A DNA stretch of 64,000 nt, from positions 1 to 64,000 of the forward strand of contig NZ_NMUM01000005.1 in NCBI RefSeq assembly GCF_002812805.1. The letters are read 5' to 3'. A model generated the notes under the pieces. That model was not told the origin of the DNA and did no database searches. It saw nothing but the letters and a program-made list of their open reading frames with translations. The stretch's first letter is position 1. Each line of letters begins with the position of its first letter. The stretch comes from Microbacterium lacus. GTDB lineage: Bacteria; Actinomycetota; Actinomycetes; Actinomycetales; Microbacteriaceae. This document shows positions 6,517 to 46,979 of this stretch, piece after piece. The position numbers and the translations under genes were made by a program.

Positions 6517-7602
6517 ATGGCCCACAACCTTCCCGACACCGTCGCCTTTCGCGACAGCCTTGCCGTATCCCAGAAAGAGAACATGGCCGCGCTCGGCCTC
6601 GGCGATACCGTCGCGGTCTGGGAGGACGGATACCGCGCCGCAGCGACCGCGGACAGCACCTTCGAGTGGTGGTACTTCGACTGCCAGCTCGACGACGGCT
6701 CCACGCTCGTCGTGACCTTCTCGAACAAGCCGCACACCGACCCATCCGGTCCGCTCACGCCGACGCTGCTCGTGATCCGACAGCTTCCGGACGGCACGCG
6801 CCGCCACCTTGCGCCGTCGTTCCCGGCCGACCAGTTCAGTGCCGCGACCGACCGCTGCGACGTGCGGATCGGCAAGAGCTCCGTGACCGGTGACCTCGAC
6901 ACCTACGACATGCACCTCGAGGTCGAAGACATCGTCGCCGATGTGACGATCACCCGGGCGGCGCCGTCATGGCGGCCCGGCGCCGGGATCACCTACTTCG
7001 ACTCGAAGCGCACCCACTACCTCGCCTGGGTTGTCCCGGTGCCCTATGGCACGGTGACCGCCCGCATCACCGAGGGCGGCACGACGACTGAGACGACGGG
7101 GAGCGCCTACCACGACCACAACTGGGGCAACCACCTCATGGGGTCGTTCCTCGACCACTGGTTCTGGGGCCGTGCCCACGTCGGCGAGTACACGATCGTG
7201 TACGTGCGGATGACGACGAAGGGCCTGCTGGGGCTCGGCGAGATGAACATCCCGACCTTTTTTCTCGCGAAGGGCGACACCGTCATCACGGACGACCTGC
7301 TGCCGTTGCGCTTGGTGACGAGCGGGGATGTCCCGGGCCCTGGACACCAGTCGTACCCCGAGCGACTCGAGTGGACGTGGGAGAGCGATCGCGGCCGCAT
7401 CGCGATGACCGTGACGAACCCGACTCTCATCGAGTCGCTCGACATGTCCGTGCCCCGACACGGTCTCTCGGCGCTGCTGCACGCGGGGGCGCATCCGATG
7501 TATTACGACTTCAACGCCGACCTGGATCTGGAGATCGATCTGGTCGACCTGAAAGACCACGTCACGGGACGGACGCTGTACGAGAAGATGATGTTCCGCT
7601 GA
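6517..7602 (+). CDS. AttH/CrtC-like (lipocalin-type, hydroxyneurosporene-synthase-related) protein
   Basis: 361 residues with the family hallmarks EWWYFD (50-55) and HDHNWG (199-204). The fold is a pair of calycin-like beta barrels, found in carotenoid 1,2-hydratases and AttH-type proteins. No carotenoid genes are in view, so hydratase activity is not claimed; binding or modifying a hydrophobic substrate is the reasonable inference. The start is the ATG at 6517, 6 nt after GAGG; the ATG at 6511 touches the ribosome-binding site. A TAGCTT -10-like box at 6472-6477 gives a short leader. No signal peptide is visible. Confidence 0.75.
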   Translation: MAHNLPDTVAFRDSLAVSQKENMAALGLGDTVAVWEDGYRAAATADSTFEWWYFDCQLDDGSTLVVTFSNKPHTDPSGPLTPTLLVIRQLPDGTRRHLAPSFPADQFSAATDRCDVRIGKSSVTGDLDTYDMHLEVEDIVADVTITRAAPSWRPGAGITYFDSKRTHYLAWVVPVPYGTVTARITEGGTTTETTGSAYHDHNWGNHLMGSFLDHWFWGRAHVGEYTIVYVRMTTKGLLGLGEMNIPTFFLAKGDTVITDDLLPLRLVTSGDVPGPGHQSYPERLEWTWESDRGRIAMTVTNPTLIESLDMSVPRHGLSALLHAGAHPMYYDFNADLDLEIDLVDLKDHVTGRTLYEKMMFR

Positions 7603-7677
7603 GTCACTTCTCGCTCGGCTGACCGAGCCGTCGGTCCGTGTAGAGGCTCGTCCGCGGAACGGAGTCTTTCGGGCCGG

Positions 7678-7683
7678 TAGAAT
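7678..7683 (+). promoter_or_regulatory. -10 box TAGAAT upstream of thrS
   Basis: TAGAAT is followed by 6 nt and then the ATG of a 20-codon open frame at 7690, so a transcript would start at or next to that ATG. A second -10-like box, TAGCCT (7784-7789), lies 27 nt before the thrS start. Confidence 0.5.
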
Positions 7684-7689
7684 CGCGGG

Positions 7690-7752
7690 ATGGAATTCCA
7701 CGCCGCTGCCCGCGTCCGCGCGCACCGCGACGGGCGAACGCGGAACGCCTGA
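7690..7752 (+). CDS. possible leaderless 20-aa upstream peptide
   Basis: ATG to TGA encodes MEFHAAARVRAHRDGRTRNA. It starts exactly 6 nt after a TAGAAT hexamer, the geometry of a leaderless transcript. Five of its codons are arginine and only one is threonine, so it does not look like a threonine attenuator for thrS. The evidence is positional only. Confidence 0.25.
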   Translation: MEFHAAARVRAHRDGRTRNA

Positions 7753-7816
7753 GCGGGCGGGACGCGCGGCGTCCGAAGCTGAGTAGCCTGGAATCCGAGC
7801 CACCTGGAGAGTTCCC

Positions 7817-9862
7817 GTGACCGACGCCGTCCCCTCGATCGACGACGCCCCTTCTACCGACGTGTCCTATCCCGCCGACGGCTTCGCGCTGTTCCCCGAC
7901 CGATCGGTCGTGGCGCTTCGCGTCAACGGTGAGCTGAAGGACCTCGCGACGCAGGTATCGGAGACGGACGCCGTCGAGCCCGTCAGGATCGACAGCCCCG
8001 ACGGTCTGTCGATCCTGCGTCACTCGACGGCTCACGTGCTCGCTCAGGCGGTGCAGCGCATCGACCCGCAGGCGAACCTCGGCATCGGTCCGCCGATCGA
8101 GGACGGCTTCTACTACGACTTCGGCGTAGCCGAGCCGTTCACCCCCGAGAAGATCAAGGCCATCACGAAAGAGATGCAGCGCATCGTTCGTGAGAGTCAG
8201 CGCTTCGTGCGTCGCGTGGTGACGGATGACGAGGCTCGGGCGGAACTCGCATCGGAACCGTTCAAGCTCGAACTGATCGACCTGAAGAGCGCTTCGACAA
8301 GCTCAGCGACCGGGGGGCTCGCCGCTGACGGCGCGAGCGTCGAGGTCGGTGCCGGCGAGCTGACGATCTACGACAACGTCGACCGCGATGGCGTGACCGT
8401 CTGGAAGGACCTCTGCCGCGGCCCCCACGTGCCGGGCACCCGCATGGTCGGGAACGGCTGGGAGCTCACCCGCATCGCTGCGGCGTACTGGCGGGGGAGC
8501 GAGAAGAACCCGCAGCTGCAGCGCATCTACGGCACCGCGTGGCCGACCAAGGACGAGCTTCGCTCCTATCAGGAGCGCCTGGCCGAGGCCGCGAAGCGCG
8601 ACCACCGCAAGCTCGGCAAAGAGCTCGACCTGTTCTCGTTCCCCGACGAGATCGGCTCGGGCCTGTCGGTGTGGCACCCGAAGGGCGGCATCATCCGGGG
8701 CGAGATGGAACAGCACGCCCGGCGCCGACACATCGCGGGCGGGTACACCTACGTGTACACCCCGCACATCTCCAAGCAGGACCTGTTTTTGCAGTCCAAC
8801 CACCTCGTGACGTACCGCGAGGGCATGTTCCCGCCGATCCGCATGGACGAGGAGCGTGACGACGAGGGTCAGGTGACCAAGCAGGGCACCGACTACTACC
8901 TCAAGCCCATGAATTGCCCGATGCACATCCTGATCTACAAGGAGCGTGCGCGGAGCTACCGCGACCTGCCCATGCGCCTGGCCGAGAACGGAACGGTCTA
9001 CCGCAATGAGCTCTCGGGCGCGCTGCACGGGCTGACCCGCGTACGGGGCTTCACCCAAGACGACTCGCACCTTTTCGTGACTCCCGAGCAGCTCGAGTCC
9101 GAAGTGACCCGCGTGCTCGATTTCGTCATCTCGATGCTGCGGGACTTCGGTCTCGATGACTTCGAACTCGAGCTGTCGATGCGCGATGACGAGAGCTCGA
9201 AGTGGATCGGCACCGAGGAGTTCTGGGACTACTCGACGAACGCGCTGCGAAACGTCGCCCTCGCAAGTGGGCTCAAGCTGACCGAGGTTCCCGGTGAGGC
9301 GGCGTTCTACGGCCCCAAGATCGACCTCAAGACGAAGGATGCGATCGGCCGCACCTGGCAGCTTTCGACCGTCCAGGTCGATCCCAACCTGCCCGACCGC
9401 TTCGACCTGGAGTACACCGGGCCCGATGGCGAAAAGCACCGTCCGATCATGATTCACCGGGCACTGTTCGGATCGATCGAGCGTTTCTTCGCGATCCTGC
9501 TCGAGCACTACGCCGGCGCCTTCCCGCTCTGGCTGTCGCCGGTGCAGGTCGTCGGCATCCCTGTCGCCGAGGATTATGCGCCGTATCTCGAAGACGTGAT
9601 CGCCCGACTGCGCGAGAGGGACGTGCGCGCCGAGGTCGACAATTCGGACGACCGGATGCAGAAGAAGATCCGCACGCACACGACCGCAAAGGTCCCGGTG
9701 CAGTTGATCGTCGGCGAAGCGGATCGCGCGGGCGGCACCGTCTCGTTCCGCTTCCGTGACGGCACCCAGACGAACGGTGTGCCGGTGGATGAGGCGATCG
9801 AGCGGATCGTCGCGGCCATCGCTTCGCACGTGCAGGTGTCTACGGCCGAGGACCTCGCGTGA
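7817..9862 (+). CDS. thrS: threonyl-tRNA synthetase
   Basis: A 681-residue class II synthetase: TGS domain (about 15-75), tRNA second-additional editing domain with [11 protein letters not shown] (about 200), catalytic core with NCPMHILIY, and C-terminal anticodon-binding domain ending near residue 665. It charges tRNA-Thr in the cytoplasm. The GTG start follows CTGGAGAG. Residues about 159-180 ([15 protein letters not shown]) interrupt a normally short loop of the editing domain and are encoded by a REP-like repeat (8291-8312). The reading frame is kept, so this appears to be a tolerated insertion. The stop overlaps the next gene by four bases. Confidence 0.97.
8291..8312 (+). repeat. REP-like hairpin unit inside thrS
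   Basis: GCTTCGACAAGCTCAGCGAC carries the loop TCGACAAGCTC shared with repeats at 39857, 39902, 50957, 56134 and 56181. Here the flanking stem is degenerate (GCT/AGC only). It is translated within the editing domain of ThrRS. Confidence 0.75.
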
Positions 9863-10419
9863 CGGATCCCTTCTCGGGCGCAGGCGAGCCGGAGCTGATT
9901 GCGGCATCCGAGCTCGCGGGCGTGCCCGATGAGTTCCAGCGGCTCTGGACCCCGCACCGGATGGCATACATCCAAGCGGGCCCTGAGCCCCTGCGCCTCG
10001 ATTGCCCGTTTGACGCCGCACCCCAGATGAGCGACGAAGACGGGCTCATCGTCGCTCGCGGCAAGACCGCCTACGTTCTGCTGAACCTGTTCCCGTACAA
10101 CTCCGGTCACCTCCTGGTGTGCCCGTACCGTCACGTCGGTCTCTACGACGAGGCGACTCGTGAAGAGGTCGACGAGATCGCCGCGCTCACGCAGACCGGT
10201 ATGCGGGTGCTGCGAGAGGTGTCGAAGTGCGACGGCTTCAACATCGGCATGAATCAGGGCCGCGTCGCGGGAGCCGGCGTCGAGGGGCACCTGCACCAGC
10301 ACATCGTTCCGCGGTGGGCGACGGATGCGAACTTCTTCCCGATCATCGCGCGCACGAAGGCGCTTCCGCAGTTGCTCGGCGACGTACGCCGGGCGATCGC
10401 GGATGCCTGGAGTATTTGA
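9859..10419 (+). CDS. HIT-family hydrolase/AP4A phosphorylase-like protein
   Basis: 186 residues with the histidine triad H144-x-H146-x-H148 in [11 protein letters not shown]. The upstream segment [18 protein letters not shown] is the typical HIT strand pair. These enzymes cleave dinucleoside polyphosphates or nucleotide-phosphate esters such as Ap4A, which aminoacyl-tRNA synthetases make. That fits the ATG... start overlapping the thrS stop by four bases: the gene starts GTG at 9859 and thrS ends at 9862. This thrS-HIT pairing is common in actinobacteria. Confidence 0.92.
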
Positions 10420-10494
10420 CTCCTCCACAGGACGACCGCGCGGTCACATTTCCTTTCCTGGAGCCACGCAGCTCCCAGGGCGAGCATTGCTCCG

Positions 10495-10500
10495 TAGCGT
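10495..10500 (+). promoter_or_regulatory. -10 box TAGCGT of leaderless hypothetical gene
   Basis: TAGCGT is followed by GTGCGA and then ATG at 10507, placing the expected transcription start at the start codon. No ribosome-binding site is present, consistent with leaderless translation. Confidence 0.5.
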
Positions 10501-10506
10501 GTGCGA

Positions 10507-10971
10507 ATGATCATCGACTCAGGTTGGGACTTTCTTTCGCTCGCTCGGCTGCGCTGGCCGGATGATCTCGGAAGCGGTGATCGTCAGTTTGTCGTGTTCG
10601 GCGACCACCATTGGTGGTTCTACGGGGTGGCCGACGTCTTCGGTGATCGGTGGGCCCACCCCGAAGAGTGGGTCGACGAGGTGTTGAACACTGTCGACTC
10701 GGACATGGTGCGCTACCTTGCCGTTGTGCTTGAGTCGGTGAACACATCGCTCGACTATTCGCTCGACGCCTATCCGTTTGATCGGATGCTTCGCGCCAAA
10801 GCGGCTGAACGCGGGCTGCACCACATGGGCTGCTATTTCATCGGCAACGAGTACTGGTCAGCTACCGGGCCGATGAAGACATTCGCCACCTACGTTGGTT
10901 CCGAGCAGTACCCGACTGTCACGGTTGAGGTAGCAACCACGACTCCCGGTTCGAGCGCCATGCATGCATAA
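10507..10971 (+). CDS. hypothetical protein, 154 aa, upstream of VapBC-type pair
   Basis: Not recognised. It starts at ATG 10507, six bases after a TAGCGT -10 box; a GTG two codons earlier is possible. The protein is rich in aromatic residues (FGDHHWWFYGVADVFGDRWA) and acidic, without signal peptide or membrane span. Its 3' end runs into the operator palindrome of the toxin-antitoxin pair downstream. Base composition looks lower in GC than its neighbours, suggesting it arrived with the toxin-antitoxin pair. It could be an immunity-type or SMI1-like small protein, but I cannot show that. Confidence 0.6.
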   Translation: MIIDSGWDFLSLARLRWPDDLGSGDRQFVVFGDHHWWFYGVADVFGDRWAHPEEWVDEVLNTVDSDMVRYLAVVLESVNTSLDYSLDAYPFDRMLRAKAAERGLHHMGCYFIGNEYWSATGPMKTFATYVGSEQYPTVTVEVATTTPGSSAMHA

Positions 10972-10982
10972 TGCAAGCATGG
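10958..10982 (+). promoter_or_regulatory. operator palindrome with embedded -10 and antitoxin start codon
   Basis: A 25-bp near-perfect palindrome runs from CCATGC (10958) to GCATGG (10982), with mismatches only at the centre and one symmetric position. The hexamer CATAAT (10967-10972) lies at its centre and is followed by 6 nt and the antitoxin ATG (10979). A bound antitoxin dimer would cover both the -10 box and the start of a leaderless message, which suits autoregulation. Confidence 0.7.
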
Positions 10983-11206
10983 CCAACGTGTTGATCCGAG
11001 ATCTGCCCGAGTCCGTTCATCGCGAGTTGACCCTTCGCGCCTCTGAACGGGGCCAGTCTCTGCAGCAGTTCCTGACGGGAGAGCTGGTGCGACTCGCGGA
11101 AACACCAACTCTGGAATCGGTTTTCACTCGGATATCTGCGCGAACGACCGGCAAGGTCGGCCTGCAGCAGGCGGTAGACGATCTCACGGCTGGACGCGCA
11201 GATTGA
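10979..11206 (+). CDS. FitA/VapB-type antitoxin
   Basis: A 75-residue protein opening MANVLIRDLPESVHRELTLR, the ribbon-helix-helix N-terminus of FitA-like antitoxins. The C-terminal half (about 45-75) is the acidic, flexible segment expected to wrap the toxin. It should bind the palindrome that contains its own start codon and repress the operon with the toxin. The start at 10979 is favoured over an in-frame ATG at 10964 because that one is upstream of the -10 box. The stop overlaps the toxin start as TTGA. Confidence 0.88.
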   Translation: MANVLIRDLPESVHRELTLRASERGQSLQQFLTGELVRLAETPTLESVFTRISARTTGKVGLQQAVDDLTAGRAD

Positions 11207-11607
11207 TCGTCGTCGATGCGAGTGTGTTGGCCAATGCTCTCGCCGACGATTCGGATGACGGGGAACGAGCACGCGCCCGCCTCCTCTCCGAAAACCGACT
11301 TGTCGCGCCGGAACTCATCGATGTGGAAGTGGCATCGGTTTTTCGTCGAAGGTGGCTTGCGGGCGATCTCGACGAGGAACGCCTCGCTCTGGCGATCGAA
11401 GATCTCGCCGCTGTTGGGATCGAACGGATGCCGATGCGCCAGCTCATGAGCCGAGTGATCGACCTGAGACGCAATGTCACCCCGTACGATGCCGTCTACG
11501 TCGCCCTCGCCGAGGTGCTCGGTTGTTCGTTGCTCACCGCGGATCAACGACTCGCGCTCGCTCCCGGGCCCCGGTGTGAAATCGAGGCGCTCACCTCGCG
11601 GCGGTGA
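11203..11607 (+). CDS. VapC-type PIN-domain ribonuclease toxin
   Basis: 134 residues with the PIN acidic set D5 (VVDASVL), E42 (LIDVEVASVF), D96 (TPYDAVYVALAE) and D114 (LLTADQRLA). PIN toxins cut specific tRNA or rRNA sites when freed from antitoxin. It starts at TTG 11203, overlapping the antitoxin stop by four bases, so the pair is coupled. The gene ends 8 bp from the convergent pyridoxal kinase gene. The pair plus the preceding hypothetical gene interrupts an otherwise housekeeping neighbourhood. Confidence 0.9.
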   Translation: MIVVDASVLANALADDSDDGERARARLLSENRLVAPELIDVEVASVFRRRWLAGDLDEERLALAIEDLAAVGIERMPMRQLMSRVIDLRRNVTPYDAVYVALAEVLGCSLLTADQRLALAPGPRCEIEALTSRR

Positions 11608-41609: not shown

Positions 41610-44555
41610 ATGGACAGTGTGGATTCCAGCTGGCGCGGTCTCATCGAGGTTGCCGACGTCGCCCCGGGCATCCCGCTCGCGCTCGGCGTAGAGCTGCGCC
41701 AGCGCACGCCGTACCGGCCGGATGACTGGGCCCCGCGGCGGGTCGAGAGCGTGCATCCGCGCGCGCTCCTGGGTCGTCGCGATGATCTGTCGCTCGGCGT
41801 CCGCCCGCTCATGCGGAGCGAGAGCACGGGCATGTGGATCAAAGGCCAGGTCTCGTGGGACTCCGTACGACGGCCCGGTTTCGGCTTCGACCCCACGCAT
41901 GCCCGGTGGTTCTCCGACCTCGCGACCCTCCTTTTGGGGGTTCGGACCGTCGGCCCCTTCGCCGACCCGGGCGAGTGGCTGACACTCGACGCGGTCGAAT
42001 CGAGCCTGCTCTGGCCGCACCTGCGCTCGGCGCGCATCGCCGGGATTCCTCTCGTCTCAACGAGCGAGCACCAGAGCGTTGCGCTCGGATACGAGGCGAC
42101 CGCGGCAATCGACGTGACGGATGCCGGTGAGGCGCTGCGTCTCCGAACGCACGTCACGGTCGACGGCGTGCCGATCGAGGATGCGGTCATCCGCCCCGTC
42201 GGTCACATCGGAATCTACGTCGCCACCCTGGACCGCGACCCCCTCCCGATCCTGCTCGCTCCGTGCAAGCTTCCGGACGCCGCCCGATCCCTCCTCAGCC
42301 ACGACGAGGGGCTGCTGATTCCCGCGGAGGAGCGCGAAGAGTTTCTCGCAGACGGCCTGCCCCGACTCGTCCGCCGCGCACGCGTCACCGCTGCGCGAGG
42401 CATCACGCTTCCCGCTCCGCCACAGCCGACGGCGGTCGTCACGGCGTCCTTCGGTGACGACGACGTGGAGTACCGCATCGAATGGTCCTATCCGGGTGTC
42501 ACCCGACTTGCCTACGACTCCGGGTCGCACCCCGATCGTGACCCCGCGGCCGAAGCCGAGATCGGATCGGGCCTCGAGACCGTCTGGCGAGAGACATCCG
42601 ATGCGCCATTCGCGCCCACGGGACGGCTGAGCGACACGGATGCTGCGGAGTTCGCCACGCGCATCCTGCCCGGCTGGGGTGCGCTCGCGCGGGTGCGCGT
42701 GGAGGGCAATGCTCCCCGGCGCGTCTACACCGAGCTGACCGGTGAACCCGCGATCAGTGTCAGCACGCTCGAGACCGACGACCCCGACTGGTTCGAACTC
42801 GGTGTGCTCGTCTCGATCGACGGTCGCGCGGTGCCGTTCGGCCCGCTGTTCCGCGCCCTCGTGCGAGGTCGCAAGAAGATGCTTCTCTCGGACGGGGCGT
42901 ATTTCTCGCTCGCGCATCCCGCGCTTCAGCGCCTGCGCGACCTGATCGACGAAGCCGGAGAGCTGGCGGAGTGGGAGACCGCGCCTCGCATCAACCGGCA
43001 CCAGACCGACCTGTGGAGTGAGTTCGAAGACCTCGCCGACCAGTCCGAACCGGCGACCGCGTGGCGCGAACTCGCCGCGGGCCTGCGCGGCACCGAAACC
43101 GTGCCGCACACGCCTCCACCGACCGGGCTCGAAGCGACGCTACGGACCTACCAGCAGGCGGGTTTCGACTGGCTGGCGTTTCTCTGGCGCAATCGCCTCG
43201 GCGGAATCCTCGGCGACGACATGGGGCTCGGCAAGACCGTGCAGCTCTTGGCACTGGCCGCCCACATCCGCGACCAGGGCGAACGGCGGCCGCTGCTCGT
43301 CGTGGCGCCCACCTCGGTGGTCGGATTGTGGTCTGCCGAGGCGGCGCGGTTCACTCCCGGCCTCCGGGTACGGCTGATCGAAGAAACCAGCACCAAGCGT
43401 GGTTCGTCGCTCATCGAGACGACAACGGATGCAGATATCGTCGTGACCTCGTATGCGCTCGTCCGCCTGGACCGAGAAGAGTTCGAGCGGGTCGGCTGGT
43501 CGGTCGTCATCCTCGATGAGGCGCAGTTCGTGAAGAACCCGCGCACACAGCTTCACCGCGCCGTGGGAGCGCTGCGAGCGGACGCGGTGTTCGCCGCGAC
43601 GGGAACACCGCTCGAGAACGGTCTGACCGACCTGTGGTCTCTGCTTTCCCTCACCGCGCCCGGTTTGTTCCCCTCCGCTCCGCGCTTCAGCGAGGCGTAT
43701 GTGAAACCCATCGAGCAGGGCAAGGTGCCGGAGAACGCGGAAGGTGGCCCATTCCGCGCGGCGAGGCTCGCGCGGTTGCGTCGCCGCATCCGTCCGCTGC
43801 TTCTCCGTCGTACGAAAGCGTTGGTCGCACCCGAGCTACCCGAGAAGCAGGAACTCGAGCTTCGCGTCGCACTCGACCCTGAGCACCGCGAGCTCTACGA
43901 TCTGACCTTGCAGCGCGAACGGCAGAAGGTCATGGGACTGCTGCAGGATCTGGACCGGAACCGATTCATCGTGTTCCGCTCGCTCACACTGTTGCGGATG
44001 CTGAGCCTGTCGCCCGCGCTGATCAGTCCCCAGAACGCGCACATTCCCGCGAGCAAACTGGACGCGTTGCTCGATCGCCTCGTCGAGGTCGCCGCTGAGG
44101 GGCACAGGGCGCTCGTGTTCAGCCAGTTCACGTCTTTCCTTCGGCTCGCGGCGGACCGCCTGGATGCCGCGGGGATCGCGCACGCCTACCTCGACGGATC
44201 GACCCGCAATCGCACCGAGGTGGTCGAGGGGTTCCGGCAGGGCGATGCGCCCGCGTTCCTGATCAGTCTCAAGGCCGGCGGTTTCGGACTCACCCTCACG
44301 GAGGCCGACTACGTGTTCGTGCTCGACCCGTGGTGGAATCCCGCGGCGGAAGCACAGGCAGTGGATCGCGCCCATCGCATCGGTCAGGAGCGACACGTGA
44401 TCGTGTACCGGCTGATCGCGGCGGACACGATCGAAGAGAAGGTGCTCGCCCTGCAAAGGCGCAAGGCACGGCTCTTCGATGCCGTCGTGGACGACGATGC
44501 CCTGTTCGCGCAGGACCTCACGGCAGACGACATCCGCTCGCTGCTGGACGGGTGA
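41610..44555 (+). CDS. SNF2-family DNA helicase/ATPase
   Basis: 981 residues. The N-terminal half (about 1-490) is a lineage-specific region without recognisable domains or SWIM zinc finger. The C-terminal half is an SNF2 motor: motif I GDDMGLGKT (535-543), motif II DEAQ (636-639), SLKAGGFGLTLTEAD and motif VI HRIGQE (922-927). Bacterial members are implicated in remodelling protein-DNA or RNA polymerase complexes, but roles are mostly unknown. The start may be ATG 41610 or GTG 41619, the latter better spaced from GAGG. It is an orphan, without restriction or methylase genes nearby. Confidence 0.92.
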   Translation: MDSVDSSWRGLIEVADVAPGIPLALGVELRQRTPYRPDDWAPRRVESVHPRALLGRRDDLSLGVRPLMRSESTGMWIKGQVSWDSVRRPGFGFDPTHARWFSDLATLLLGVRTVGPFADPGEWLTLDAVESSLLWPHLRSARIAGIPLVSTSEHQSVALGYEATAAIDVTDAGEALRLRTHVTVDGVPIEDAVIRPVGHIGIYVATLDRDPLPILLAPCKLPDAARSLLSHDEGLLIPAEEREEFLADGLPRLVRRARVTAARGITLPAPPQPTAVVTASFGDDDVEYRIEWSYPGVTRLAYDSGSHPDRDPAAEAEIGSGLETVWRETSDAPFAPTGRLSDTDAAEFATRILPGWGALARVRVEGNAPRRVYTELTGEPAISVSTLETDDPDWFELGVLVSIDGRAVPFGPLFRALVRGRKKMLLSDGAYFSLAHPALQRLRDLIDEAGELAEWETAPRINRHQTDLWSEFEDLADQSEPATAWRELAAGLRGTETVPHTPPPTGLEATLRTYQQAGFDWLAFLWRNRLGGILGDDMGLGKTVQLLALAAHIRDQGERRPLLVVAPTSVVGLWSAEAARFTPGLRVRLIEETSTKRGSSLIETTTDADIVVTSYALVRLDREEFERVGWSVVILDEAQFVKNPRTQLHRAVGALRADAVFAATGTPLENGLTDLWSLLSLTAPGLFPSAPRFSEAYVKPIEQGKVPENAEGGPFRAARLARLRRRIRPLLLRRTKALVAPELPEKQELELRVALDPEHRELYDLTLQRERQKVMGLLQDLDRNRFIVFRSLTLLRMLSLSPALISPQNAHIPASKLDALLDRLVEVAAEGHRALVFSQFTSFLRLAADRLDAAGIAHAYLDGSTRNRTEVVEGFRQGDAPAFLISLKAGGFGLTLTEADYVFVLDPWWNPAAEAQAVDRAHRIGQERHVIVYRLIAADTIEEKVLALQRRKARLFDAVVDDDALFAQDLTADDIRSLLDG

Positions 44556-44623
44556 GCGGGGCCTCTTTCTCACGGCGCTCGTTTCTCACGGCGCTGTTCA
44601 CCCGGGTCCCAGGAGCCCGCGCG

Positions 44624-44629
44624 TAGACT
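44624..44629 (+). promoter_or_regulatory. -10 box TAGACT of the MBL-Rieske gene
   Basis: TAGACT predicts a start near 44636 and a short leader containing GGAGAGGGA before the ATG at 44659. Confidence 0.4.
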
Positions 44630-44658
44630 CGAGGGCTGTTGGAGAGGGAAGGGCACAC

Positions 44659-46251
44659 ATGCGCATCACGGGCCTCGGCCACGCCGGAATGTTCATCGAA
44701 ACGCTCGGGGGATCGATCCTCTGCGACCCGGTGATCGGCCCGAGCTTCTTCGGCTCGTGGTTCCCGTTCCCCGACAACCGGGCGCTCGACTGGGAGCGTT
44801 TCGGTGCCGCGGACTTCCTGTACATCTCGCACCGGCATCGCGATCACTTCGATCCGCGGATGCTCGAGCGATATGTCCGCAAGGACATCACCGTGCTGTT
44901 GCCGGACTATCCCACCGACGATCTCGAGAACGACCTGCGAGCACTCGGTTACGACAACATCGTCTACACACCGAACGGCGAGACTCTGAAGTTCGGCGAG
45001 CTGAAAGTCATGGTGACGCCGCTCCGTGCCCCGAGCGACGGGCCCATCGGCGACTCGTCGCTGAGCGTCGACGACGGCACCGCCAGCATCCTGAACCAGA
45101 ACGACTCGCACCCGCTCGACCTCGACAAGCTGCTGTCGTTCTCGAAGCCCGAGGCCTACTTCACCCAGGTGTCGGGTGCGATCTGGTGGCCGATGGTCTA
45201 CGACCTGCCACAGGACTCGAAGGTGCACTTCGCCCAGCTCAAGCGCGACGCGCAGAACAAGCGCGCCATGTATTACATCGAGAAGGTAGACGCGCCGCAC
45301 GTGTTCCCCATGGCGGGGCCGCCGATGTTCCTGCGCGAAGAGCTGTTCCGCTACAACGGGTGGGGCGAGCAGGACGACTCGATCTTCACGGACTCGCGCC
45401 AGTTCCTCGAGCACATGGCAGAGGTTCGTCCGGAGCAGAACGGGTACCTTTTCATCCCGGGGACTCAGGTCGATCTGAACAACGGCGAGCTCGAAGTCAC
45501 TCAGACGCTCTACAGCGATGCCGAGATCGAGCACATGTACGGCGAGAAGTGGGAGTACCTGGCCGAGCAGCGAGACTCCCGACAGGACGAAGTGCGAGCG
45601 GAGGAGGCGTCCCGCGCTCCCGTACTGCCGCCCGACGAGATGCTCGCTGAGATCAAGGGCTGGTGGGAGCCGCTGCTGCGCCGCGCCCGGACCATCCGCG
45701 ACGGGGTGGGCGGCAACGTGCGGTTCCGCATCGGCGACCTCGACATGGTGGTGGACTTCCCGAAGGCGAAGGTTCGCGAATACGCGGGCGAAGAGTGTAT
45801 CTACTGGTACACGATCCCCGCCGACCTGGTGTCGACCAACATCCGTGATCACGAGATCGATTGGTCAAACTCGATCTTCCTGTCGATGCAGTTCGAGGTC
45901 GGTCGGAGCGGCAAGTTCAACGAGTTCCTGACCACGTTCCTCAAGTGCCTCTCGCGCGACCGTATTGAGTATGTCGAGAACTGGTACGCGGAGCAGTCGG
46001 ACCAGACCGAGGACGTCCAGCTCGGCGATTGGGTCGTGCAGCGCCGCTGCCCGCACCTGAGGGCAGATCTGACGAAGACGGGCAAGATCGAGGACGGCGT
46101 GCTGACCTGCAGCCTGCACGACTGGAAGTGGGACCTCACGTCGGGCCGGTGCCTGACATCGCAGGGGCATCCGATCCGGGCACACGAGACTCCCGACGCG
46201 ACGGATGCGGTCGACGCCGACGCCGACGCATCCGCTCCCGCCACCGTCTGA
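44659..46251 (+). CDS. metallo-beta-lactamase-fold protein with C-terminal Rieske [2Fe-2S] domain
   Basis: 530 residues. An N-terminal UlaG-like MBL domain carries H58-x-H60-x-D62-H63 (SHRHRDHFD). A long central region without recognised domains (about 220-440) follows, with WWPMVYDLPQDSK and MQFEVGRSGKFNEFL. The C-terminus is a Rieske domain with C464-x-H466 and C484-x2-H487 (RRCPHLRADL ... CSLHDWKWD). The closest named architecture I know is CMP-Neu5Ac hydroxylase, which has the Rieske domain first and the MBL part second. An oxygenase or redox enzyme role is inferred; no ferredoxin or reductase gene is adjacent. A Asp/Ala-rich tail ends it. Confidence 0.88.
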   Translation: MRITGLGHAGMFIETLGGSILCDPVIGPSFFGSWFPFPDNRALDWERFGAADFLYISHRHRDHFDPRMLERYVRKDITVLLPDYPTDDLENDLRALGYDNIVYTPNGETLKFGELKVMVTPLRAPSDGPIGDSSLSVDDGTASILNQNDSHPLDLDKLLSFSKPEAYFTQVSGAIWWPMVYDLPQDSKVHFAQLKRDAQNKRAMYYIEKVDAPHVFPMAGPPMFLREELFRYNGWGEQDDSIFTDSRQFLEHMAEVRPEQNGYLFIPGTQVDLNNGELEVTQTLYSDAEIEHMYGEKWEYLAEQRDSRQDEVRAEEASRAPVLPPDEMLAEIKGWWEPLLRRARTIRDGVGGNVRFRIGDLDMVVDFPKAKVREYAGEECIYWYTIPADLVSTNIRDHEIDWSNSIFLSMQFEVGRSGKFNEFLTTFLKCLSRDRIEYVENWYAEQSDQTEDVQLGDWVVQRRCPHLRADLTKTGKIEDGVLTCSLHDWKWDLTSGRCLTSQGHPIRAHETPDATDAVDADADASAPATV

Positions 46252-46264
46252 CGCTCTCATCTCA

Positions 46265-46334
46265 GCGAAACACCCCTTTTGCGGCGAAACACCCCACGAC
46301 ACAGGGTGTCTCGGCGCACGTTGGGTGTTTCGGC
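46265..46334. repeat. cluster of GCGAAACACCCC words in direct and inverted orientation
   Basis: GCGAAACACCCC occurs at 46265-46276 and 46284-46295. Inverted relatives follow at about 46303-46314 (GGGTGTCTCGGC) and 46323-46334 (GGGTGTTTCGGC). They can form alternative hairpins between the MBL-Rieske gene and the pyr promoter, probably acting as a terminator or repetitive palindromic element. Confidence 0.65.
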
Positions 46335-46387
46335 GTCCGGACGGGCGGGAGTGCGGCGAAGCGGGATGGCGGATGTGTGAGGTCCGG

Positions 46388-46448
46388 TAGGGTGAGAAGG
46401 CACAGCAACCTTTAACACCGTCCTGTGAGGCGGAGAAGGGAGCGGCAC
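46388..46448 (+). promoter_or_regulatory. pyr promoter and PyrR-binding mRNA leader
   Basis: TAGGGT (46388-46393) is the likely -10, so the RNA starts near 46400. The leader contains CGTCCTGTGAGGCGGAGAAG (46419-46438), which follows the known PyrR-binding loop pattern (TCC-x-G-x-GAGG-C-x-GAGAAGG). The same purine run is the ribosome-binding site of pyrR. Bound PyrR with UMP would therefore block translation, as in mycobacteria. Confidence 0.7.
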
Positions 46449-46979
46449 ATGAGCACGAGAACCGTGCTGCACGAGGCCGACATCGCACGAGCCCTGACCA
46501 GGATCTCCCACGAGATCCTCGAGTCCAACAAGGGTGGCGATGGGTTGATCCTTCTGGGGATCCCCACACGCGGTGTGACCCTCGCCCATCGCATCGGGAC
46601 CCTGGTCTCGGAGTTCAGCGGCACGACCGTCCCGGTCGGCGCGCTCGACGTCACGATGTACCGCGACGATCTCGCACGCAATCCCACGCGCACCCCGCAG
46701 CCCACGTCGATCCCCGCGGGAGGTATCGACGGGAAGACGGTCGTCCTGGTGGACGACGTGCTGTTCTCCGGCCGCAGCATCCGGGCCGCCCTCGACGCGC
46801 TGCAGGACATCGGACGGCCCGCCGCGGTTCGCCTCGCGACCCTGATCGATCGGGGCCACCGCGAGCTACCGATCCGGCCCGACTTCGTCGGCAAGAACCT
46901 GCCGAGCTCGCGGGAGGAACGCGTCAACGTGCGTCTCGCCGAAACCGACGGCATCGAAGAGGTGACGGTCGGATCATGA
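46449..46979 (+). CDS. pyrR: bifunctional pyr operon regulator/uracil phosphoribosyltransferase PyrR
   Basis: 176 residues, PRTase fold: PRPP loop [14 protein letters not shown] (98-111), early segment [24 protein letters not shown]. It senses UMP and binds the operon leader, and can make UMP from uracil. The ATG at 46449 is preceded by the GGAGAAGGGAG site that overlaps the PyrR-binding loop. Its stop overlaps pyrB as ATGA. Confidence 0.96.

Follow-up and report, generated by a model that had tools for sequence, protein, structure and literature searches.

The gene at 44659-46251 on the forward strand of the window (the whole stretch of 64,000 nucleotides of Microbacterium lacus DNA analysed here) very probably encodes an orthologous NamH, a UDP-N-acetylmuramate hydroxylase in which UDP-MurNAc would be hydroxylated at a probable di-iron MBL site supplied with electrons by the Rieske cluster. 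The protein belongs to the Rv3818 domain family, and its domain order, the invariance of its named residues and its distribution across genomes were each observed directly. It is an ordinary gene of the genus Microbacterium rather than an unexplained new enzyme, and likely the cause of a known chemotaxonomic trait: N-glycolylated murein, a chemotaxonomic marker of Microbacterium, now has a candidate gene behind it.

Rv3818 of Mycobacterium tuberculosis is namH and encodes the hydroxylase responsible for N-glycolylmuramic acid (PMC6194230); the enzyme converts UDP-MurNAc to UDP-MurNGlyc by hydroxylation, and its loss leaves M. smegmatis hypersusceptible to β-lactams and lysozyme (PMC5964476). 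A published description gives NamH a UlaG domain at the N-terminus and a Rieske domain at the C-terminus, with Rv3818 as the M. tuberculosis orthologue (PMC10050696), and namH is said to be absent from the genus Corynebacterium (PMC6194230). N-glycolylated mureins were present in the Microbacterium strains tested, and this acyl type is regarded as characteristic of Microbacterium (PMC10757982). One whole-word search of a limited set of papers, which is no proof of absence, gave a single paper naming both Microbacterium and namH, the latter once and in a reference title, and no link between the two; literature searches on acyl types in Microbacteriaceae and on a combination of MBL, Rieske and SCP2 domains returned nothing relevant and no instance, respectively.

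The preliminary description had placed an MBL fold and a C-terminal Rieske centre in one 530-residue chain. Both stand: the open reading frame carries Pfam domains at either end, and the motifs named at the time (H58/H60/D62/H63 and C464, H466, C484, H487) are all correct in the sequence (Table 1). Lactamase_B_2 (residues 20-130, E=2.4e-6, 27.7 bits against a cut-off of 27) and Lactamase_B_3 (residues 2-118, E=9.7e-6, 26.1 bits against 24) lie just above their cut-offs; the Rieske domain matches at residues 459-501 (E=6.3e-9). The middle 200 residues had been reported to match nothing. Residues 328-445 are a named Pfam family, PF25451 (“Rv3818-like, SCP2-like domain”), matched over 119 of 119 profile positions at E=7.9e-47 and 158.8 bits against a curated cut-off of 28.2. 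Most of the supposedly uncharacterized middle outside this domain appears, on the predicted model, to belong to the MBL fold, which extends from residue 1 to about residue 273-323 in most of the structural alignments. The domain order is thus MBL (residues 1 to ~300), SCP2-like (328-445) and Rieske (459-501), a combination that we regard as unusual. An NCBIfam scan of the protein gave sub-threshold matches only. The tie to Rv3818 runs through the Pfam model PF25451, which stands in for the mycobacterial sequence in place of a direct alignment. Since NamH/Rv3818 is a characterized enzyme with this architecture, UlaG-type domain and C-terminal Rieske domain included (PMC10050696), the gene can no longer be called new or the least explained complete gene of the window.

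Table 1. Positions of namH and of its domains and motifs in the window
Feature	Position	Strand	Basis
namH, UDP-N-acetylmuramate hydroxylase orthologue, 530 aa	44659..46251 (44659-46248 + stop)	+	ORF from ATG; PF25451 match; full-length relatives
N-terminal MBL-fold domain, ~residues 1-300, UlaG/CmlA-like, presumed oxygen-activating metal site	44659..45558	+	Pfam and model alignments; boundary approximate
HxHxDH motif, H58-H63	44830..44847	+	Sequence; same in 125/125 distinct sequences
DGPxGD motif, D127-D132, in region of CmlA GEHGD motif	45037..45054	+	D127, G128, G131, D132 each 125/125; profile alignment
N148-D149; D149 pairs with CmlA Asp	45100..45105	+	125/125; profile alignment
SCP2-like domain, residues 328-445, PF25451 SCP2_Rv3818	45640..45993	+	Pfam; AF2 model of 296-530
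C-terminal Rieske [2Fe-2S] domain, ligands C464, H466, C484, H487	46033..46161	+	Pfam 459-501; ligands 125/125; model

Conservation was read from an alignment of 125 distinct sequences including that of the window (138 prior to the merging of duplicates, with L001, L040 and L056 already excluded): 98 of the Microbacterium group, among them L093, L098 and L122, four of other Microbacteriaceae, and 23 distant relatives that align over their full length at 38-46% identity to the window protein. H58, H60, D62, H63, C464, H466, C484 and H487 are each identical in all 125, as are H8, D23, D65, D127, D132, N148, D149, Q170, N233, D245, D366, D401 and C498. Because this identity extends through 125 of 125 distinct sequences, the distant ones included, the motifs are not chance. 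The MBL and Rieske ligands, whose conservation among homologues had been proposed as a check, are kept throughout. In residues 1-325 the sole invariant histidines of all rows are H8, H58, H60 and H63, and residues 123-132 contain no His.

The genes matched around namH in the window are aro genes, efp, nusB, an SNF2-type gene and pyr genes (names given by eye), consistent with the earlier remark that no redox partner lies nearby. The promoter of its own that had also been claimed is not supported: a scan of 44400-46500 found no consensus promoter, and the gap to the upstream gene is just 103 bp. The same interval holds two terminator-like matches against 0.8 expected. An inverted repeat at 46266-46332, between namH and pyrR (29 nt, 79% complementary, 9 nt between arms), is made of GAAACACCC/GGGTGTTTC-like units and was not flagged as a T-tailed terminator. 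The one Rfam match in the window at the gathering threshold is a tRNA at 1446-1518.

The wider locus was followed in 80 named loci, the best 80 of 235 confirmed matches (240 pattern matches). By title 77 are Microbacterium; the others are L093 (Microbacteriaceae), L098 (Actinomycetales) and L122 (Planococcus sp. APC 4015). The L122 namH is 85% identical to that of the window, and the assembly is probably a mislabelled or contaminated Microbacterium. Among these best 80, namH is followed by pyrR within the flank in 67 (gap 86-4230 bp, median 851), and in the other 13 the flank (5 kb long in 12 of them, 1.7 kb in L098) contains no pyrR match; SNF2 has no match within the flank in 18 (16 + 1 + 1). 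In L058, minus-strand ORFs at 6641-11439, resembling a carotenoid pathway by eye, lie between namH and the end of the flank. Where namH is missing, nusB is the next matched gene before pyrR in G015, G026 and G509, and SNF2 in G032; the contig of G030 ends too soon for the pyrR neighbourhood to be read. Across 20 regions from other families, an all-against-all comparison of ORFs of at least 100 aa, excluding namH and overlapping frames, found no family shared by more than six. A cluster whose longest member is DnaK-like by eye lies near namH in five of these regions (L140, L146, L150, L151 and L154). In two relatives of genus g26, namH adjoins PF01553 acyltransferase genes, a setting like that of Rv3814c-Rv3816c next to Rv3818.

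Within the genus, namH is present in 31 of the 35 members searched, that of the window included. At E <= 1e-10, 30 of these 31 have a single match; G023 (83% complete, 500 contigs) has two adjacent namH fragments. The members without a match are G015, G026, G030 (77% complete) and G032. Beyond the genus the gene is sparse: 14 of 299 genomes of the family, in 3 of 85 genera sampled, match at E <= 1e-30, which leaves 82 genera without; five of the six same-genus rows listed in that search match, G509 being the sixth. Of 23 genomes from other families of the order, none matched at E <= 1e-10. In the phylum, PF25451 occurs in 26 of 296 genomes, spread over 18 of 198 genera, and in none of 14 control genomes, the control lists including Corynebacterium glutamicum. 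From the 26 phylum loci one truncated protein of 149 residues (L056) was dropped; the other 25, among which L040 is the window itself and L045 another genus member, encode proteins of 512-538 residues.

A four-protein tree of 37 rows, drawing on 30 of the 54 named loci that have all four genes and leaving out G030, groups G032, G509 and G026 (99/92) and leaves them outside a 32-row clade (100/98) containing the window, the 30 named loci and G015. The simplest reading would be one gain of namH at or near the base of this clade and at least one later loss, in G015, whose position nested among namH bearers suggests that its lack is secondary. G015, G032, G509 and G026, all without namH, should have N-acetyl murein. 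In a tree of NamH itself (41 rows; the root was drawn at the midpoint only, and long branches are a caveat there), the 18 Microbacteriaceae rows form one group (100/100) with nine class relatives beside it (branch 96/98); support for f22 plus f23, the clade closest to it, is weak (85/47). Two small-genome genera of the same family, g228 and g262, carry NamH proteins 63-67% identical to that of the window. None of nine other window genes tested was found in their loci (L164-L167, 10.7-17 kb each), so namH occupies a different chromosomal place there. With one copy of NamH in most members, and with natural lineages that lack it, the genus Microbacterium is convenient for studying the enzyme.

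Several positions separate the Microbacteriaceae from the distant relatives. Position 151 (45109-45111) is His in 102 of 102 Microbacteriaceae and Arg in 23 of 23 distant rows; position 167 (45157-45159) is Tyr in all 102 against His in 22 of 23; position 244 is Thr in Microbacteriaceae against Pro in all 23; position 282 (45502-45504) is Gln (100) or Asn (2) against His in all 23; and position 488 (within 46114-46125, residues 486-489) is Asp in all 102 against Gly in all 23. Of these conserved positions, 151, 167, 282 and 488 may lie near the metal centres. Position 488 adjoins the Rieske ligand H487, and an Asp beside this last Rieske His might shift the cluster potential; the changes at 151, 167 and 282 possibly reflect a rebuilt metal or substrate site. 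Judged from these residues, the Microbacteriaceae enzyme may hold its metal site differently from the mycobacterial one.

Because of the changes at 151, 167, 282 and 488, confidence in the NamH reading is slightly lowered, and it becomes somewhat likelier that a NamH-related hydroxylase with the same Rieske/MBL chemistry has shifted in Microbacteriaceae to another N-acetylated sugar nucleotide, such as UDP-GlcNAc or a surface-glycan precursor. The four positions differ between the 102 Microbacteriaceae and all or nearly all of the 23 distant rows, and namH sits among aro, nusB and pyr genes, not among mur genes. However, Microbacterium murein is itself glycolylated (PMC10757982), so that some enzyme must do this, and a second NamH-like protein was not found in the genus members at E <= 1e-10. 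Such a shift of substrate is therefore considered improbable, and hydroxylation of UDP-MurNAc by NamH is preferred.

The fold was compared with solved structures at two levels. In a profile search built from 25 sequences, the MBL part matched the di-iron monooxygenase FrsH (8a90, E=1.9e-10) and CmlA (4jo0, E=1.9e-5), with MBL hydrolases ranking behind them (NAPE-PLD the best at 0.0015, a UPF0173 hydrolase at 0.0069), and the C-terminus matched Rieske oxygenases and ferredoxins; no solved structure of NamH was found in the sequence and profile searches. The AF2 model of the whole chain is of middling confidence (mean pLDDT 71.4). Foldseek with this model ranked CmlA and FrsH first (3.4e-9 and 7.3e-9) and an isothiocyanate hydrolase third (8.2e-9). 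By Z-score, the best row is a hydrolase, 3rpc (Z 19.4, rmsd 3.0, 227 aligned), beside CmlA 5kik (Z 17.6, rmsd 3.2, 227 aligned), FrsH 8a90 (Z 17.2, rmsd 2.9, 226 aligned), and UPF0173-type hydrolases and RNase J (Z 17.7-18.2). On this model, hydrolases tie with or exceed CmlA and FrsH in Z.

A model of residues 296-530 reached a better pLDDT of 78.6. In it, residues ~324-428 align best with sterol carrier protein 2 (3bdq: Z 8.2, rmsd 3.0, 98 aligned) and residues ~446-517 with a Rieske ferredoxin (4nbc: Z 6.7, rmsd 3.1, 70 aligned); the methyltransferase SpnK, not called SCP2, gives Z 6.5 (rmsd 3.9, 116 aligned), and all Foldseek rows lie above E=0.001. The SCP2 and Rieske Z-scores are near the range of chance similarity and were counted only together with the Pfam matches; the SCP2 scores, though modest, are trusted because Pfam agrees.

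A further alternative is an MBL hydrolase of the UlaG/UPF0173/NAPE-PLD type whose Rieske cluster serves as a redox sensor and not as an electron donor. Hydrolase chains such as 3rpc fit the model no less well than oxygenase chains, and the name UlaG has been given to the domain in print (PMC10050696). Yet the best profile matches are di-iron oxygenases, invariant His in residues 1-325 is limited to the four residues listed above, and the characterized orthologue is a hydroxylase (PMC5964476), which together make a hydrolase very improbable. The new oxygenase or sensor family of the preliminary description, in line with the NCBIfam result and the unusual domain combination, is hardly tenable now that the middle domain proves to be named after Rv3818, a characterized enzyme with the same layout: oxygenase was a good guess, NamH being a hydroxylase, whereas new does not hold, and no support was found for a sensor. 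Counted against NamH itself were the identity of only 38-46% to distant relatives, the 4 of 35 genus members without the gene, the fold scores of hydrolases equal to those of CmlA and FrsH, and the weak support for the nearest NamH clade.

For the substrate in M. lacus, the metal, the path of the electrons and the role of the SCP2-like domain, we infer the following scheme. NamH, with O2, would hydroxylate UDP-MurNAc at the methyl carbon of its N-acetyl group, and the resulting UDP-N-glycolylmuramic acid would enter peptidoglycan to give the N-glycolylated murein of Microbacterium. An external NAD(P)H-dependent reductase or a ferredoxin would reduce the C-terminal Rieske cluster, from which single electrons would travel to the MBL domain and its di-iron (or iron) site. 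This site, held by H58, H60, D62, H63 and D149 and probably by D127 and/or D132, would activate O2 and insert one oxygen atom. The acidic residues of the DGPxGD motif are candidate metal ligands, and the SCP2-like domain may contribute to the substrate pocket or to the interface joining the two metal centres.

The genome-wide search for a redox partner covered Reductase_C and Fer2. Reductase_C (PF14759) occurs in 9 of 20 genus members searched and has no match in the genome of the window; Fer2 (PF00111) occurs in 16 of 20, the only match in the window's genome being partial (positions 1-56 of the 77 in the profile, E=2.2e-8). The namH-bearing G008 has no Fer2 match, and of four genus members without namH three lack both families and G509 has both. 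This distribution among members with and without namH indicates that neither family is an obligatory partner, and the lack of Reductase_C with a single partial Fer2 match makes a dedicated reductase/ferredoxin pair of the Rieske-oxygenase type unlikely in the window's genome. The excerpted literature names no electron donor of NamH.

Taken jointly, these features can tentatively be read as marking NamH as a mechanistic class of its own: a di-iron N-acetyl hydroxylase of MBL fold, fed by a Rieske cluster, with DGPxGD in place of the third-ligand His of MBL enzymes and an SCP2-like domain bridging both metal centres. Within this class the Microbacteriaceae variant would have been rebuilt: it would have lost the His that other NamH proteins carry at 282 (and 167), would have a new His151 two positions beyond D149 and an Asp next to the last Rieske His, and would use a donor other than the usual Rieske-oxygenase reductase. 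We consider this composite reading possible but less likely than not.

Known systems resemble parts of this design to differing degrees. In a Rieske non-haem iron oxygenase, the alpha subunit has a C-terminal helix-grip catalytic domain with a 2-His-1-carboxylate iron site; in the window protein the Rieske domain itself is C-terminal, and no Pfam match to a helix-grip domain was found, a missing match not being proof. UlaG/UPF0173 di-zinc hydrolases conserve a third and a sixth His as metal ligands; here H151 is fixed only in Microbacteriaceae and H282 only in the distant rows, the ligand equivalence in this comparison not being structure-based. Sec-alkylsulfatases such as SdsA1 are MBL enzymes, hydrolases without a Rieske domain. 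They share the SCP2-like part, to which 4axh (Z 6.7, rmsd 3.0, 96 aligned) and 2cfu (Z 5.9, rmsd 3.7, 102 aligned) align in the model, and gave no match in sequence and profile searches with the window protein.

CmlA and FrsH (4jo0, 8a90) have the closest solved MBL domains by profile and are the first two Foldseek rows, with the match limited to the MBL part. Their GH and HxHxDH motifs align with the window protein, and for CmlA so does the later Asp paired with D149, which we expect to be the bridging ligand. Opposite the Glu of the CmlA GEHGD motif, taken here as E377 (the one changed in PDB 5kil), stands A124, a position occupied by Ala or Ser; the acidic ligand must therefore differ, and may be D127 or D132.

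CMP-Neu5Ac hydroxylase (CMAH) has an N-terminal Rieske domain followed by an MBL domain, and the reversed order in the MBL-SCP2-Rieske chain of the window sets the two apart. They share the MBL fold, a Rieske domain and, for NamH, the chemistry. CMAH, a protein of the MBL fold, acts on a sugar nucleotide by hydroxylating its acetyl methyl (PMC4819959), and the likening to it made at the outset was apt, since NamH likewise turns acetyl into glycolyl on a sugar nucleotide.

The closest likeness is to mycobacterial NamH (M. tuberculosis Rv3818, M. smegmatis namH). NamH relatives of other families differ at residues 151, 167, 282 and 488, as well as in overall identity, and the locus differs too, with nusB-SNF2-namH-pyrR in the window against acyltransferase neighbours in genus g26. 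The N-terminal UlaG/MBL domain, the Rv3818-like SCP2 domain and the C-terminal Rieske domain are the same, the relatives are similar in length, and the genus Microbacterium, too, has N-glycolylated murein.
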